Assembly (NCBI GenBank): GCA_028280345.1
Contig: JANQLY010000002.1
Coordinates: 124,001-188,000 of the forward strand
Direction: 5' to 3'
Source of the DNA: Pseudomonadales bacterium
Lineage (GTDB): Bacteria; Pseudomonadota; Gammaproteobacteria; Pseudomonadales; UBA7239
DNA length: 64,000 bases
This document shows, piece after piece, positions 48,989 to 53,089 of the stretch. The first letter of the stretch is position 1, and every line of letters begins with the position of its first letter. Under the pieces are notes generated by a model. The model saw only the letters and a list, made by a program, of their open reading frames with translations. It was not told where the DNA came from and searched no databases. A program made the translations under genes and the position numbers.

Positions 48989-49146
48989 GGTGAGGTGTCC
49001 GAGTGGGTGGAGCCTTATCGTTTGCAAAGCAAAGCTTTGCATAAGGCGGAACGACAAAAAGCTACGCTTTTTGGCCGGGCCGCAGGAGCACGCAGGCGTG
49101 TGGACTGGAAGCTCTGAAAAAATCCAAATCCCCAAGAAAAAATTAT
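48989..49146 (+). pseudogene. Split 5' remnant of tRNA-Ser with a hairpin-rich insert
   Basis: 48989-49006 (GGTGAGGTGTCCGAGTGG) is identical to the first 18 nt of the intact tRNA-Ser 158 bp downstream. The next about 80 bp are foreign to a tRNA and contain two strong hairpins. One is CCTTAT/ATAAGG enclosing GCAAAGC/GCTTTGC (49013-49046); the other is CAAAAAGC/GCTTTTTG (49055-49073). After it, GGAGCACGC reappears near 49086, as in the tRNA anticodon arm, and the similarity then decays. This looks like a second tRNA-Ser copy broken by an insertion. The 286 bp to the left (48703-48988) hold no gene or signal I can support. Confidence 0.65.
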
Positions 49147-49234
49147 GGTGAGGTGTCCGAGTGGTCGAAGGAGCACGCCTGGAAAGTGTGTGTACGGCAA
49201 CGTACCGAGGGTTCGAATCCCTCCCTCACCGCCA
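49147..49234 (+). tRNA. tRNA-Ser (GGA)
   Basis: 88 nt including CCA, with the long variable arm of a class II tRNA (TGTACGGCAACGTACC). Acceptor GGTGAGG pairs with CCTCACC. The anticodon stem CACGC/GTGTG (with G-T) holds loop CTGGAAA, anticodon GGA. The T-arm GAGGG-TTCGAAT-CCCTC is perfect. No clear promoter lies directly upstream, where the broken copy sits. Confidence 0.95.
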
Positions 49235-49239
49235 AATTT

Positions 49240-49268
49240 AAAAAGGCACCCCTTGTGGGTGCCTTTTT
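49240..49268 (+). terminator. Rho-independent terminator of tRNA-Ser
   Basis: AAAAAGGCACCC and GGGTGCCTTTTT form a 12-bp perfect stem around CTTGT, ending in the T-run. It lies six bases after the tRNA CCA. Confidence 0.93.
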
Positions 49269-49558
49269 AATTTGTTGGTTCGGGAGTGAATGGAGGCAAA
49301 ATCTCCGGTTCGACAAAATGCGATTAAGCGTTTTGGACGTCGCCTTGGCGACGGGGCGAAGCCCCGAAAACAGCCCTTATGGCCAAAACACTTCGTGGGC
49401 CACACTGGGCTGTTTGAGTCAATCCCTCCCTCACCCCGCCATCGAAGATAGCGGCTCAGTCGCGAGCGTCCGGCCCGCTAGCATGGCTACCGGGCGTTCA
49501 CGATACGCGAAATATATTTCGCAAAAAACGTATCGTTCACCCCTCACCGCCAATAAAT
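49269..49558. repeat. Hairpin-rich segment with two remnants of the tRNA-Ser 3' end
   Basis: No gene is seen. Two partial copies of the tRNA 3' end occur: TCAATCCCTCCCTCACCCCGCCA-like sequence at 49419-49441 and CCCTCACCGCCA at 49541-49552. Between the intact tRNA and these lie several hairpins: CAAAATGC/GCGTTTTG (49314-49335), CGTCGCC/GGCGACG and GGGGC/GCCCC in series (about 49338-49364), CAGCCC/GGGCTG spanning about 49372-49413, and GCGAAATATATTTCGC (49507-49522) inside CGATACG/CGTATCG (49501-49535). The organisation suggests repeated integration or recombination at the tRNA 3' end. Confidence 0.7.
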
Positions 49559-49559
49559 A

Positions 49560-49589
49560 AAAAAACCCGGTCTTGTGCCGGGCTTTTTT
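49560..49589. terminator. Rho-independent terminator-like hairpin
   Basis: CCCGG (49566-49570) and CCGGG (49578-49582) with a 7-nt loop are flanked by an A-run and a T-run. It could stop transcripts from either side. The 165 bp between it and the FG-GAP gene stop at 49755 contain nothing else recognisable. Confidence 0.75.
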
Positions 49590-49754
49590 ATTTAACCTGC
49601 CGGTAGACAAGGCGCCGATAGCGGTTCAAGCTAAACTTGATCACCGCAAGTCAGCCCGGAACCGCATATCAATAAGTTATGGGTCTGTTTCCAGAGAATT
49701 CTCTTGTAAATCCACTTAACTTATCAATACCTTATATTAACGACTAAGCTAAAG

Positions 49755-52706
49755 TTAATTATTATTCAGTAATCTTTGTCCACGGTAATCACCATCCAAA
49801 GGCCAAACATCATTAATGTTAGGGTCCAATGGGTCTGCATCTATAATATCTGGTGTTAAGTCATTGTCGTCATCGTTATCTTCTGTTAGATCATCGCAGC
49901 CATCACCATCATTATCATTATCCAGACTTACCGTTGCATCACAGGCATCAGCATTATTCCCCATACCATCACCATCACTATCTTGTGATTCAGTAATATC
50001 CAGAGGAAATGCATCACTCACATCGGGCTCGCCGTCATTATCGTCATCGGTATCCGCATTATCCCCAATGCCATCGGCATCGGAATCGGCTGTCTCAGTA
50101 GCGTCTAACGGGAAAGCATCTTCAGCATCAATGGTACCATCATTGTCATCATCTTCATCAATACTATTGCCTATGCCGTCCAGGTCAGTGTCAACCCATT
50201 CGTCAACATTATTCGGATCAAAATCAATGGCATTGTGATAAAAGTCAGTATCAATATCATTAAGTAAATCAGCGATTAAGATGATTCGAACCGAGCCTGT
50301 ATTTATTTGATTCCAGTGGTCAAGACGTCTTCCACCGATAATAAGGTCTGCGTACCCGTCCATATCGATATCACCAGCGCCGCTTACAGCTTCACCGAAG
50401 GATGCCCACTTAGCTGCACGCCCAATTCTAAACAATGACATACCATCAATACCTGAGTACACATGGGCTTCACCAAAGGAACCAATTGCCACATCATCAT
50501 AACCATCATTATTCACATCACCAACATCACTCACTGAGCGGCCAAACTCTCCAGGAGGAGTATCCAGACTAAAGTCATAGAGTACAGCCCCGTTGGCACC
50601 GGAGAATACTCGAGCAAAGCCATTGCACTGAATCGGAAATGAAGCTGAACAATAAGCAGGTGCGCCAACGATGACATCAGTATGGCCATCCCCATTCATA
50701 TCACCTGCGCCACTGACCGATACACCAAAGGTTTTCGCGGTACCACCTAAAAATTCATATAATATTGCGCCATTTGCGCCAGAAAAAACTTTGGCGGAGC
50801 CGCCGTCCAAATAAGCTCCGTTGGAGCCAACAACAACATCAGCATAGCCATCATTATTCACATCACCTGCATCGCTGACATCTATGCCTAGATGATAATC
50901 CCAACCATCACCATCAAAGCTATAAAGAATGCTGCCATCCTTGCCGGAAAAAACTTTTGCCTGGCCGCTATTCATGCCCGTAGTGTCAGCGAGAGGTTCA
51001 CCAATAATAATGTCATCGTAACCGTCATTGTTGACATCCCCGGCATCACTGACGGAATAACCAAAGGTATAGGAGTTGCCACCAGAACCATTGAAGGAAT
51101 ACAGTTCAATACCATCACGCCCGGAATAAACTTTAACATAATCGCCACTTGGGTATTGATAGCCCTTATTAGTTCCGACAACTACATCATCATAACCATC
51201 ATTGTTGACATCGCCAGCACTGCTGACAGAGCCTCCAAAATAATCTAAAGCGTTGTCACCGTAAAAATTATATAAGACCTCTCCATTGATTCCGGATAAA
51301 ACGAGGGCTGAGCCACTATCTTCCCCGTTTGTATCGTCTCGGCTCACGCCAATAATGCTGTCAGGGTAACCGTCGCCGTTAACGTCGCCGGCATCGCTAA
51401 CGTCATCACCAAAAAAATCCTCATAATCTTCTCCGTAATAAGACCGCCTCCAGTAAGGCTGAATTTCAGCATTATGAGGATCTGAGCCTAGAAAAACTTC
51501 TTCTTGATCTGAATGGCCGTCACCATCATGATCGGCAACATCACACGCGTCGCCAACCTGATCATTATCAACATCTTCCTGTAAATAATTGCTTACACTG
51601 ATACAGTTATCAACGCTGTCTTCTATGAGATCTCCATCAGCATCGGCCCACCGGGTTATATCAAATGGAAAACCATCGATTGTATCAATATAACCATCTC
51701 CATCATCATCAGGGTCTACACTGTTTAATAACTGGTCGCCATCAATATCAATGTCTCCCACAAAGAATGGATTAAAATCGTCATGATCAATAGTGTCAGG
51801 CACTCCGTCGTTATCATCATCTGTATCATATTCGTTTCTGATGTTATCTTTATCGGCGTCAAAGATCAGCTCACCCAGAGGTGGCTCAAAAGGCTCATTG
51901 AATCCCCAGCTGGTTACTATTGCCGTAGTCGGAAAGTCCACCAGGTTTTCATTAATATTTACATAAGTCTTATAACACTGAACTAAAGACTGCTCCGCAT
52001 TCAGTGTTAATGTACAAAGAGTGAAGTCATTAACACCGTAAGAAAATTGAATTGAGTTTGATATATTAAGGGTTTCCGTTTGTGCATTTGTAACGCTGAT
52101 GTTATTGGTTTCGTTAAAGCATACATTGATCATAAAATCGTAACAATAGCTCCTGTCTTGCTCCCAGTTCTGAAATAGATTACATTCGAGAATCGAATTT
52201 CCGCTACAGGAAAATTCAATTCTTGATTGTAATTCTCCGCCAGCAAAGTATTGATCGGGAAGATTAAAGGGCTCATTAATCAATTGCATGCCACTATCTC
52301 TGGGTGGGTCATCATTATTTCTATGATTAAAGAGAGAATAGTCAGACAAGCGAAGGCAGTTAGGGCCTGTTTCATCCACGACACATAGTTTTGCATTCAC
52401 AGTGCCAGCTTCAAGAGAGAAAAATATATCACCTCCCTGGCTATGGGGTTTGTCACTCCATATATCTATACTTAATTCATAACGCTTGACGGTAGGGTCT
52501 TCTCCAATAATTACTTCCCATCCATCAGCTATAGAGTCAGAGTCTGAATCAGTAATCAGAGGGTCAGTTCCATAGATTATTTCTTCAGCATCTGACAAGC
52601 CATCATTATCAGAATCCAATGCAAGCGCAGCACAAGGTAAAAAACAAAGCAAAGTACAGATGCGTTGGTATTTTAAAAAAGCTGGTAGTAAGGTATTTTT
52701 CATCAT
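49755..52706 (-). CDS. Secreted FG-GAP (integrin-like) beta-propeller protein with thrombospondin type 3-like calcium repeats
   Basis: 983 residues. Signal peptide 1-30 (ends PCAALA). DSDNDGLSDAEE-type calcium motifs follow, then a Cys-containing domain of about 200 residues with no recognised family, a run of DDDNDGVPD-type thrombospondin-3-like repeats (about 285-410), and seven FG-GAP repeats (about 425-830), each with an FGxxVSxAGDVNxDGYxD calcium loop. A second run of Asp-rich repeats closes the protein, ending in an Asn-rich tail. Seven FG-GAP units predict a complete seven-bladed propeller. The coding DNA looks more AT-rich than the core genes nearby. It is divergent from a related gene and beside tRNA-Ser. 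Likely extracellular; role unknown. Confidence 0.85.
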   Translation of the reverse strand: MMKNTLLPAFLKYQRICTLLCFLPCAALALDSDNDGLSDAEEIIYGTDPLITDSDSDSIADGWEVIIGEDPTVKRYELSIDIWSDKPHSQGGDIFFSLEAGTVNAKLCVVDETGPNCLRLSDYSLFNHRNNDDPPRDSGMQLINEPFNLPDQYFAGGELQSRIEFSCSGNSILECNLFQNWEQDRSYCYDFMINVCFNETNNISVTNAQTETLNISNSIQFSYGVNDFTLCTLTLNAEQSLVQCYKTYVNINENLVDFPTTAIVTSWGFNEPFEPPLGELIFDADKDNIRNEYDTDDDNDGVPDTIDHDDFNPFFVGDIDIDGDQLLNSVDPDDDGDGYIDTIDGFPFDITRWADADGDLIEDSVDNCISVSNYLQEDVDNDQVGDACDVADHDGDGHSDQEEVFLGSDPHNAEIQPYWRRSYYGEDYEDFFGDDVSDAGDVNGDGYPDSIIGVSRDDTNGEDSGSALVLSGINGEVLYNFYGDNALDYFGGSVSSAGDVNNDGYDDVVVGTNKGYQYPSGDYVKVYSGRDGIELYSFNGSGGNSYTFGYSVSDAGDVNNDGYDDIIIGEPLADTTGMNSGQAKVFSGKDGSILYSFDGDGWDYHLGIDVSDAGDVNNDGYADVVVGSNGAYLDGGSAKVFSGANGAILYEFLGGTAKTFGVSVSGAGDMNGDGHTDVIVGAPAYCSASFPIQCNGFARVFSGANGAVLYDFSLDTPPGEFGRSVSDVGDVNNDGYDDVAIGSFGEAHVYSGIDGMSLFRIGRAAKWASFGEAVSGAGDIDMDGYADLIIGGRRLDHWNQINTGSVRIILIADLLNDIDTDFYHNAIDFDPNNVDEWVDTDLDGIGNSIDEDDDNDGTIDAEDAFPLDATETADSDADGIGDNADTDDDNDGEPDVSDAFPLDITESQDSDGDGMGNNADACDATVSLDNDNDGDGCDDLTEDNDDDNDLTPDIIDADPLDPNINDVWPLDGDYRGQRLLNNN

Positions 52707-53089
52707 TATAGTTCTAAATATGGACTATTAAGCTCTTTCTCACTCTATCCGAGTCTACAGCATGATAGCTGTTCCGAGTAGTGATTTTCTATATAGGCCT
52801 TTGATTTCAATAGGTTACAGGCGGTGATAGAGACTCTGTTTATAACCGGATTCGGCAAAATACGGTTGAGTATTTTGGGTGTCTGCATGCCGAGAGCCTG
52901 CTCCGCGAGCGAAGCGAGTGTAATGGGTACGCAGTGCAGCCCCTTATTCCATTAAGTGATTGGCGCTAATTCGGGGTAAAGACCTCCAGTCCACCCTTGA
53001 TGGGCAAGGAATTTGTAATAGATAGCATTTAGCAGGTATCGTAACAGGCATTAAGACATGACTTTATACCCCAAAGGAATTGGAAAATA
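52707..53089. other. Intergenic region between divergent FG-GAP genes, with a hairpin related to the one near tRNA-Ser
   Basis: No gene is seen in these 383 bases. A perfect 8-bp hairpin, CAAAATAC (52856-52863) and GTATTTTG (52870-52877) with a 6-nt loop, resembles the hairpin at 49314-49335 in both stem and flanks (GGTTCGaC and GGATTCGgC on the left, GGaCGTC and GGgTGTC on the right). A further GC-rich segment with CTGCATGC, CGCGAGCGAAGCGAG and CAGCCCCTTAT follows. Promoters for both divergent genes must lie here, but none can be defined. Confidence 0.6.

Follow-up and report, generated by a model that had tools for sequence, protein, structure and literature searches.

What are two related hairpins doing on either side of an FG-GAP gene? 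The question is raised by a 64,000-nt stretch of DNA (the window; contig JANQLY010000002.1, positions 124,001–188,000 of the forward strand, assembly GCA_028280345.1) from a Pseudomonadales bacterium of UBA7239. A preliminary description had noticed the pair and had proposed that they are ends of a mobile unit carrying the gene, or sites of the integron attC type. We consider it highly probable that the left hairpin, at 49.3 kb, is stem 1 of a repeat in the trailer of a transfer RNA (tRNA) gene, built like the RtT repeats (Rfam RF00391) of Escherichia coli. The explanation that best covers the evidence as a whole, and that we regard as likely, is an RtT-like unit that interrupts a T-loop and arose as a gene-less insertion. 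The window unit looks like an ordinary representative of a broad class of RtT-like repeats at tRNA flanks, a class that has been poorly described.

The left hairpin lies 73 nt 3′ of an intact tRNA-Ser(GGA) gene, which the preliminary description had missed together with the tRNA fragments surrounding it. The relevant features are as follows (window coordinates, strand, basis in brackets).

49147–49234 (+): intact tRNA-Ser(GGA) gene, host gene of the repeat (ARAGORN, Rfam tRNA)
49240–49268 (+): palindromic terminator-like hairpin between the tRNA and the unit (sequence comparison)
49283–49306 (+): degenerate inverted T-arm-like stretch before the interrupted T-arm (comparison with better preserved copies: L098, tRNA-Ser(gct))
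49307–49415 (+): structured body of the RtT-like unit (covariance model R1, 62.8 bits at 49307–49355; whole-unit fold z −4.2)
49314–49335 (+): hairpin 1, the left hairpin of the preliminary description (pattern search, shuffles, folding)
49339–49352 (+): hairpin 2, GTCGCC/GGCGAC (covariation, folding, sequence comparison)
49353–49365 (+): hairpin 3, GGGGC/GCCCC (folding)
49369–49414 (+): hairpin 4, long, AACAGCCC...GGGCTGTT (folding)
49416–49435 (+): tRNA-Ser 3′-end copy that starts in the T-loop, GAGTC-AATCCCTCCCTCACC (49421–49435 matches 49216–49230 exactly over 15 nt, as a direct repeat)
49441–49540 (+): second hairpin unit of different build, GTTC...GTTCAC type (comparison by eye)
49540–49594 (+): second tRNA 3′-end copy (CCCCTCACCGCCA, about 49540–49553), then another terminator (sequence comparison)
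52856–52877 (+): hairpin 1 of an orphan unit, the right hairpin of the preliminary description (pattern search, shuffles, folding)

The body of about 110 nt consists of GGTTCGAC, the 5′ half of a T-arm, followed by at least four hairpins, and the CAGCCC-TTAT element that had been singled out previously falls inside hairpin 4. The whole unit at 49307 folds better than every shuffle. Its parts follow the general order of these repeats: intact tRNA, palindromic terminator, inverted T-arm-like stretch, GGTTCGAC, hairpin 1 and further hairpins, then GAGTC or similar, then AATCC..., which is the 3′ end of the same tRNA from the T-loop on, and often another terminator. The body therefore sits at GGTTCGA^AATCC, breaking the T-loop of a truncated second tRNA 3′-end copy. 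One such unit is present at the tRNA-Ser(GGA) of the window. Near-identical terminator-like hairpins precede the units at tRNA-Lys, Arg(acg) and Ser(tga) of the same genome, and the differently built unit at 49441–49540 resembles, by eye, T-loop inserts at its Ala, Leu(gag) and Met tRNAs.

Both hairpins have a perfect 8-bp stem and a 6-nt loop, CAAAATGC-GATTAA-GCGTTTTG on the left and CAAAATAC-GGTTGA-GTATTTTG on the right, and the coordinates, stems and loops first given for them are exact. A pattern search allowing up to three mismatches matched only these two places in the window (chance mean 0.05; 0 of 100 shuffles), and each hairpin alone folds better than every shuffle (z −3.9 at 49314 and −5.9 at 52856). 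A third copy on the same contig (C11:215584–215605, minus strand) has a tRNA-Ser(tga) gene on one side and a recombinase gene on the other, with tRNA fragments around it, and it was this setting that led us to recognise the tRNA context of the window hairpin. Rfam with curated cut-offs reported only tRNAs in the window, and the exact-pattern search in relatives returned only chance-looking matches. Covariation was scored over 10 copies from the genome itself (0.220 versus 0.088 shuffled, reached by 0 of 500 shuffles) and over 74 distinct copies, the latter in an alignment that had been fitted to the model. In the 74 copies stem 1 is paired in 98.5%, with 97 doubly changed cells versus 25.7 in shuffles, and its score of 0.273 drops to at most 0.034 when the stem is slid. 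The pairing of hairpin 1 is under selection, with strong support from covariation, as the paired changes between the two window copies had suggested; covariation of this kind does not separate folding of RNA from folding of DNA.

In sequence comparisons the units are tied to tRNA genes, end on the right in the 3′ end of that same tRNA and form tandem arrays in which hairpin 1 covaries. When the window stretch was compared with its own genome by BLAST, the good matches lay directly behind tRNA-Ser(gct), Lys, Arg(acg) (two copies) and Ser(tga). The covariance model R1, built from the 10 own-genome copies, finds 10 strong matches there, with 9 of the 10 beside a tRNA gene. Eight are 3′ of tRNA genes (four units at three tRNA-Ser genes, two at Arg(acg), one each at Lys and Val), one lies in a pseudo-tRNA-Arg(tct) that stands between tRNA-Pro and the intact tRNA-Arg and has insertions in the D-stem and T-loop, and one is the orphan at 52856. 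Ser(tga) and Arg(acg) each carry two units in tandem, and at least three occur in tandem in relatives. R1 detects units in 61 of the 195 order genomes and 47 of the 274 class genomes, often in tandem with a spacing of 160–190 bp. Of 81 units that were inspected closely, 57 follow a complete tRNA and four precede one; of the remaining 20, four follow a recognisable tRNA 3′ part, four belong to one array whose tRNA is off the contig, and the others, a few of them intergenic orphans, have no tRNA or are unclear. The tRNA types bearing units are Ser, Arg, Lys, Val, Phe, Leu, Gln, Pro and Asp. The 3′ end of the unit's own tRNA (at least 9 of 12 letters matching) follows the body in 48 of 61 tRNA-adjacent units, compared with 2 of 61 when tRNAs are swapped, and the copy starts nearly always at the identical T-loop position. 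Such 3′-end copies accompany 9 of the 37 tRNA genes of the genome.

Empty sites are available within one genus (g32), where genome G032 has no unit and no 3′-end copy at any of its 38 tRNAs and three congeners have 8–14 units. At tRNA-Pro(ggg), both flanks align between G070 and G032, and the species differ at this same tRNA by a single clean 208-bp insertion in the T-loop of G070. The insert opens with 19 nt copied from the tRNA 3′ end; a terminator and the body come next, and the original 3′ end and terminator lie downstream. As the 3′ end is duplicated, the tRNA remains intact. At Ala, Val, Leu(gag) and Arg(tcg) of the window's genome the duplication takes in the terminator, 54–76 nt in total. 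Such a 208-bp insert and such duplicated ends are what one expects after an insertion with a long target duplication, and the earlier idea of a mobile element holds to the extent that an element inserted at a defined site appears to be involved.

The part order of the window unit is that of the RtT repeats at tyrT/tyrV of E. coli K-12, which read GGATGAGAAGCTTCG..AAGGTTCGA[hairpins]..GAGTAATCC plus the tRNA 3′ end. Common to both are the inverted T-arm-like stretch, GGTTCGA, a multi-hairpin body, a ..CCCGAAGGG.. region, GAgT-AATCC, the tRNA 3′-end copy, tandem arrays and the position 3′ of a tRNA. RF00391 matches occur in 61 of the 274 class genomes, over its gathering cut-off of 45 bits in 18. 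They overlap R1 matches at 24 loci in 19 genomes, always on the same strand (0 on the opposite strand) and at an offset of 26–48 nt in 23 of the 24, mostly 31–39. The best relative within the order, L098, scores 36.9 bits, below the cut-off; since the architecture is homologous and the scores stay under the cut-off, we call the units RtT-like and not RtT. What is new relative to RtT is the range of tRNA types, as opposed to Tyr, the terminator that mostly separates tRNA and unit, none being seen at E. coli tyrT, and the existence of related D-arm units. The first hairpin also differs, with a stem of the CAAAATGC type. RtT places number 1–10 per E. coli genome (median 3), and 734 of 5426 genomes have no match at the sensitivity used. 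In Salmonella, rtT RNA is listed among variable-number tandem repeats (PMC2658671), and a tandem GA motif has been noted in its structure (PMC7657543). Within open-access text, we found no description of these units beyond RtT. Since about 1978 the tyrT repeats of E. coli have been treated as a curiosity confined to a single tRNA locus. The present data show that RtT is not peculiar to tyrT, as the same architecture is found beside tRNA genes of many types across much of an order.

A mechanism that would account for these features begins with a tiny gene-less insertion entering the T-loop, or the D-arm in related units. The tRNA end would be duplicated, usually with its terminator, so that the tRNA stays functional, and the unit would then multiply locally in tandem; its hairpins would be kept because the folded strand, either single-stranded DNA or read-through RNA, is recognised by a putative enzyme. 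We put the chances of this behaviour at about even. Several observations weigh against it and against the wider explanation: good alignment on both sides is limited to one filled/empty pair, no enzyme associated with the units was found, the genome itself has no RF00391 match at E ≤ 0.01, with the tested relatives in the order below the gathering cut-off, and unit bodies cluster neither by genome nor by tRNA type. Clustering by genome was considered as proof of recent spread and rejected, as it is not seen; a few similar pairs hint at such spread between tRNA genes and stop short of proof. Template switching at the terminator and T-loop palindromes could also give similar duplications without mobility. 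With this real alternative and no clear clustering of bodies, the insertion mechanism is one that we infer.

The alternative in full is that local replication errors suffice, template switches at the palindromic terminator and at the T-loop's self-complementary TTCGAA having copied tRNA ends as inverted and direct repeats, later amplified by unequal crossing-over, with a vertically inherited body. Points in its favour are an inverted, exact copy of the tRNA 3′ end that follows the terminator at Ser(gct), an inverted-T-arm-like motif before 26 of 56 units, the arrays with their copy-number variation, and the missing clustering of bodies by genome. The conserved body, however, is not tRNA sequence and yet is common to many tRNA types, and the absence of units at all 38 tRNAs of G032 versus 8–14 in its congeners also speaks against it; we judge replication errors alone to be rather unlikely. 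A somewhat better case, if still the lesser possibility, can be made for an RNA role, in which the unit is read as a tRNA trailer and processed to a small structured RNA, as annotated for E. coli RttR, with hairpins kept for the RNA. It draws on homology and register with RtT, which RefSeq annotates as a small RNA (RtT/RttR), on the covarying stems and on the superior fold of the unit at 49307. However, a terminator-like hairpin with a T-run stands between tRNA and unit at 35 of 42 first units (9.5% in shuffles), so that in most genomes transcription would be by read-through only. This intervening terminator weakens the case for a function as processed trailer RNA. Given the transcription terminator ahead of most units, they may be recognised as folded DNA.

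The right hairpin belongs to a unit of its own.

52835–52931 (+): degenerate unit, an orphan with no tRNA (R1 51.4 bits; homologous to unit 1 at tRNA-Ser(tga), 79% over 98 nt, E 9e−15)

The similarity of flanks mentioned in the preliminary description is real and reaches further than was described, as this alignment with the tRNA-Ser(tga) unit demonstrates. Past the first hairpin the unit is degenerate, and as a whole (52849) it does not fold unusually well (z −0.56). Its 79% identity to the first tRNA-Ser(tga) unit marks it as a decayed relic of that lineage. A module, GAGCCTGCCCCGCAAGCGCAGTGAGTGCTTTGGGTAC, at 52900–52931 recurs at L066 10711–10760, L156 and L155; besides some of the units, it occurs close to other tRNAs (Cys, Leu) and within repeats of related genomes that have no tRNA, and may be a separate dispersed repeat.

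These results bear on both original proposals. The two hairpins do flank the FG-GAP gene, but only positionally; the partner at the boundary is the tRNA gene. That they are the ends of a mobile unit carrying the gene would fit their place on either side of it, an FG-GAP paralogue (at least 2064 aa) after the unit at tRNA-Val, and a syntenic tRNA-Ser without FG-GAP in another family. In that distant family (G181), the only place where synteny with cyclase and tRNA-Ser was seen, the tRNA-Ser/cyclase neighbourhood is kept; it has three units in tandem, and the 4 kb examined contain no FG-GAP homologue. Against a mobile unit, both window copies have the same orientation, with neither inverted ends nor a common junction repeat seen, the right copy is the decayed relative of the tRNA-Ser(tga) unit, and the remaining copies, Val excepted, flank no FG-GAP gene; with 9 of 10 own-genome copies adjoining a tRNA, we regard this reading as very improbable. 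The orphan itself has an FG-GAP gene on each side. In relatives p408/MiaE is conserved, but the tRNA-Ser/FG-GAP junction was not found, and we found no evidence of units carrying an FG-GAP gene. There is no demonstrable link between unit and gene; FG-GAP genes near tRNA loci may occupy variable ground. An FG-GAP-type gene of at least 2064 codons (L269 809–7000, C11:341308 on) stands directly behind the tRNA-Val(gac) unit and is paralogous to both window FG-GAP genes.

The attC proposal is not supported either. A folded single-stranded recombination site, at which a tyrosine recombinase builds arrays at tRNA genes in an attC-like manner, would share with attC the conserved hairpin, here mostly behind a terminator, and the arrays next to one fixed site, and a Xer-like recombinase gene directly follows the two tRNA-Ser(tga) units. 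Unlike in attC, no R″ (RYYYAAC) or R′ (GTTRRRY) box occurs in 49235–49470, the orphan's hairpin containing one chance GTTGAGT. No protein of the genome exceeds the cut-off for the integron integrase (TIGR02249), the only matches being partial and Xer-type, as in 13 of 14 control genomes. The recombinase is absent at other unit loci (L006 gives a weak match without a unit), gene cassettes are lacking, and the wide spacings examined resemble islands in or near tRNA anticodon arms. We consider such a site improbable. The gene in question (L066 9444–10544, minus strand; C11:214.4–215.5 kb) encodes a third Xer-like tyrosine recombinase, below the XerC and XerD cut-offs, and was rejected as driver of the units, being near no other unit locus and having as homologues general Xer-type proteins from unrelated phyla. 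Beside it are a D-Ala-D-Ala-ligase-like ATP-grasp protein and a TPR-containing protein. Gene cassettes between units 1.5–12 kb apart were likewise considered and rejected, the second copy at the loci examined being mostly a displaced tRNA 3′ half or pseudo-tRNA at an apparent island end.

The units recall island att repeats at tRNA 3′ ends in their duplicated 3′ end, intact tRNA and site in the T-loop, and differ from them in that the segment is about 160–210 bp, without genes, and has a structured body common to several tRNA types. Like repetitive extragenic palindromes and bacterial interspersed mosaic elements (REP/BIME), they are short, dispersed and structured, with a few tRNA-less copies in related genomes; unlike these, window-type units are tied to tRNA genes. 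They account for stretches of tRNA fragments downstream of tRNA genes, which one could readily take for island att sites, integron sites or pseudo-tRNAs. At L123 2201 and 13957, L124 4960 and L126 3861, island-end-like sequence meets tRNA-Arg 3′ halves or pseudo-tRNAs at the anticodon arm, and these island-like junctions bring an RtT-like unit along.

Related units are also found upstream of tRNA genes, in the window as follows.

48989–49006 (+): tRNA-Ser 5′-end copy reaching the D-loop, exact over 18 nt (repeat comparison)
49007–49146 (+): D-loop unit and sequence leading into the intact tRNA (Ser_gga/Ser_tga upstream comparison)

The latter has hairpins at 49020–49046 and 49049–49083 and has relatives upstream of Ser(tga) and Arg(acg). 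A tRNA 5′-end copy lies upstream of 10 of the 37 tRNA genes of the genome (swapped-flank control 0.1) and of 0 of 38 in G032. The copies are cut at position 12 or about 18 and are followed by hairpins, of the GACAANAAGC-TAT-GCTTNTTGGCCGG type, and a run into the intact tRNA (also at L066). These D-arm units are alike between tRNA genes, those of Ser(gga) and Ser(tga) sharing 76% over 97 nt (E 3e−13); we know of no description of such units in open-access text. One might speculate, though we think it rather less probable than not, that there exists a gammaproteobacterial family of gene-less mobile elements that enter tRNA genes after D-stem position 12, in the D-loop or in the T-loop, need a folded strand in order to move and restore the tRNA through a duplication of its end together with promoter or terminator, E. 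coli RtT being one surviving branch. Empty sites, arrays and D-arm counterparts make the nature of RtT testable with respect to movement, recognition of the fold and status as an RNA or DNA feature. At L073 3387–3700 (C12:279386–279700 of the window's genome), L096 and L124, pseudo-tRNA-Arg copies with hairpin insertions in the D-stem and T-loop stand in tandem before the intact tRNA.

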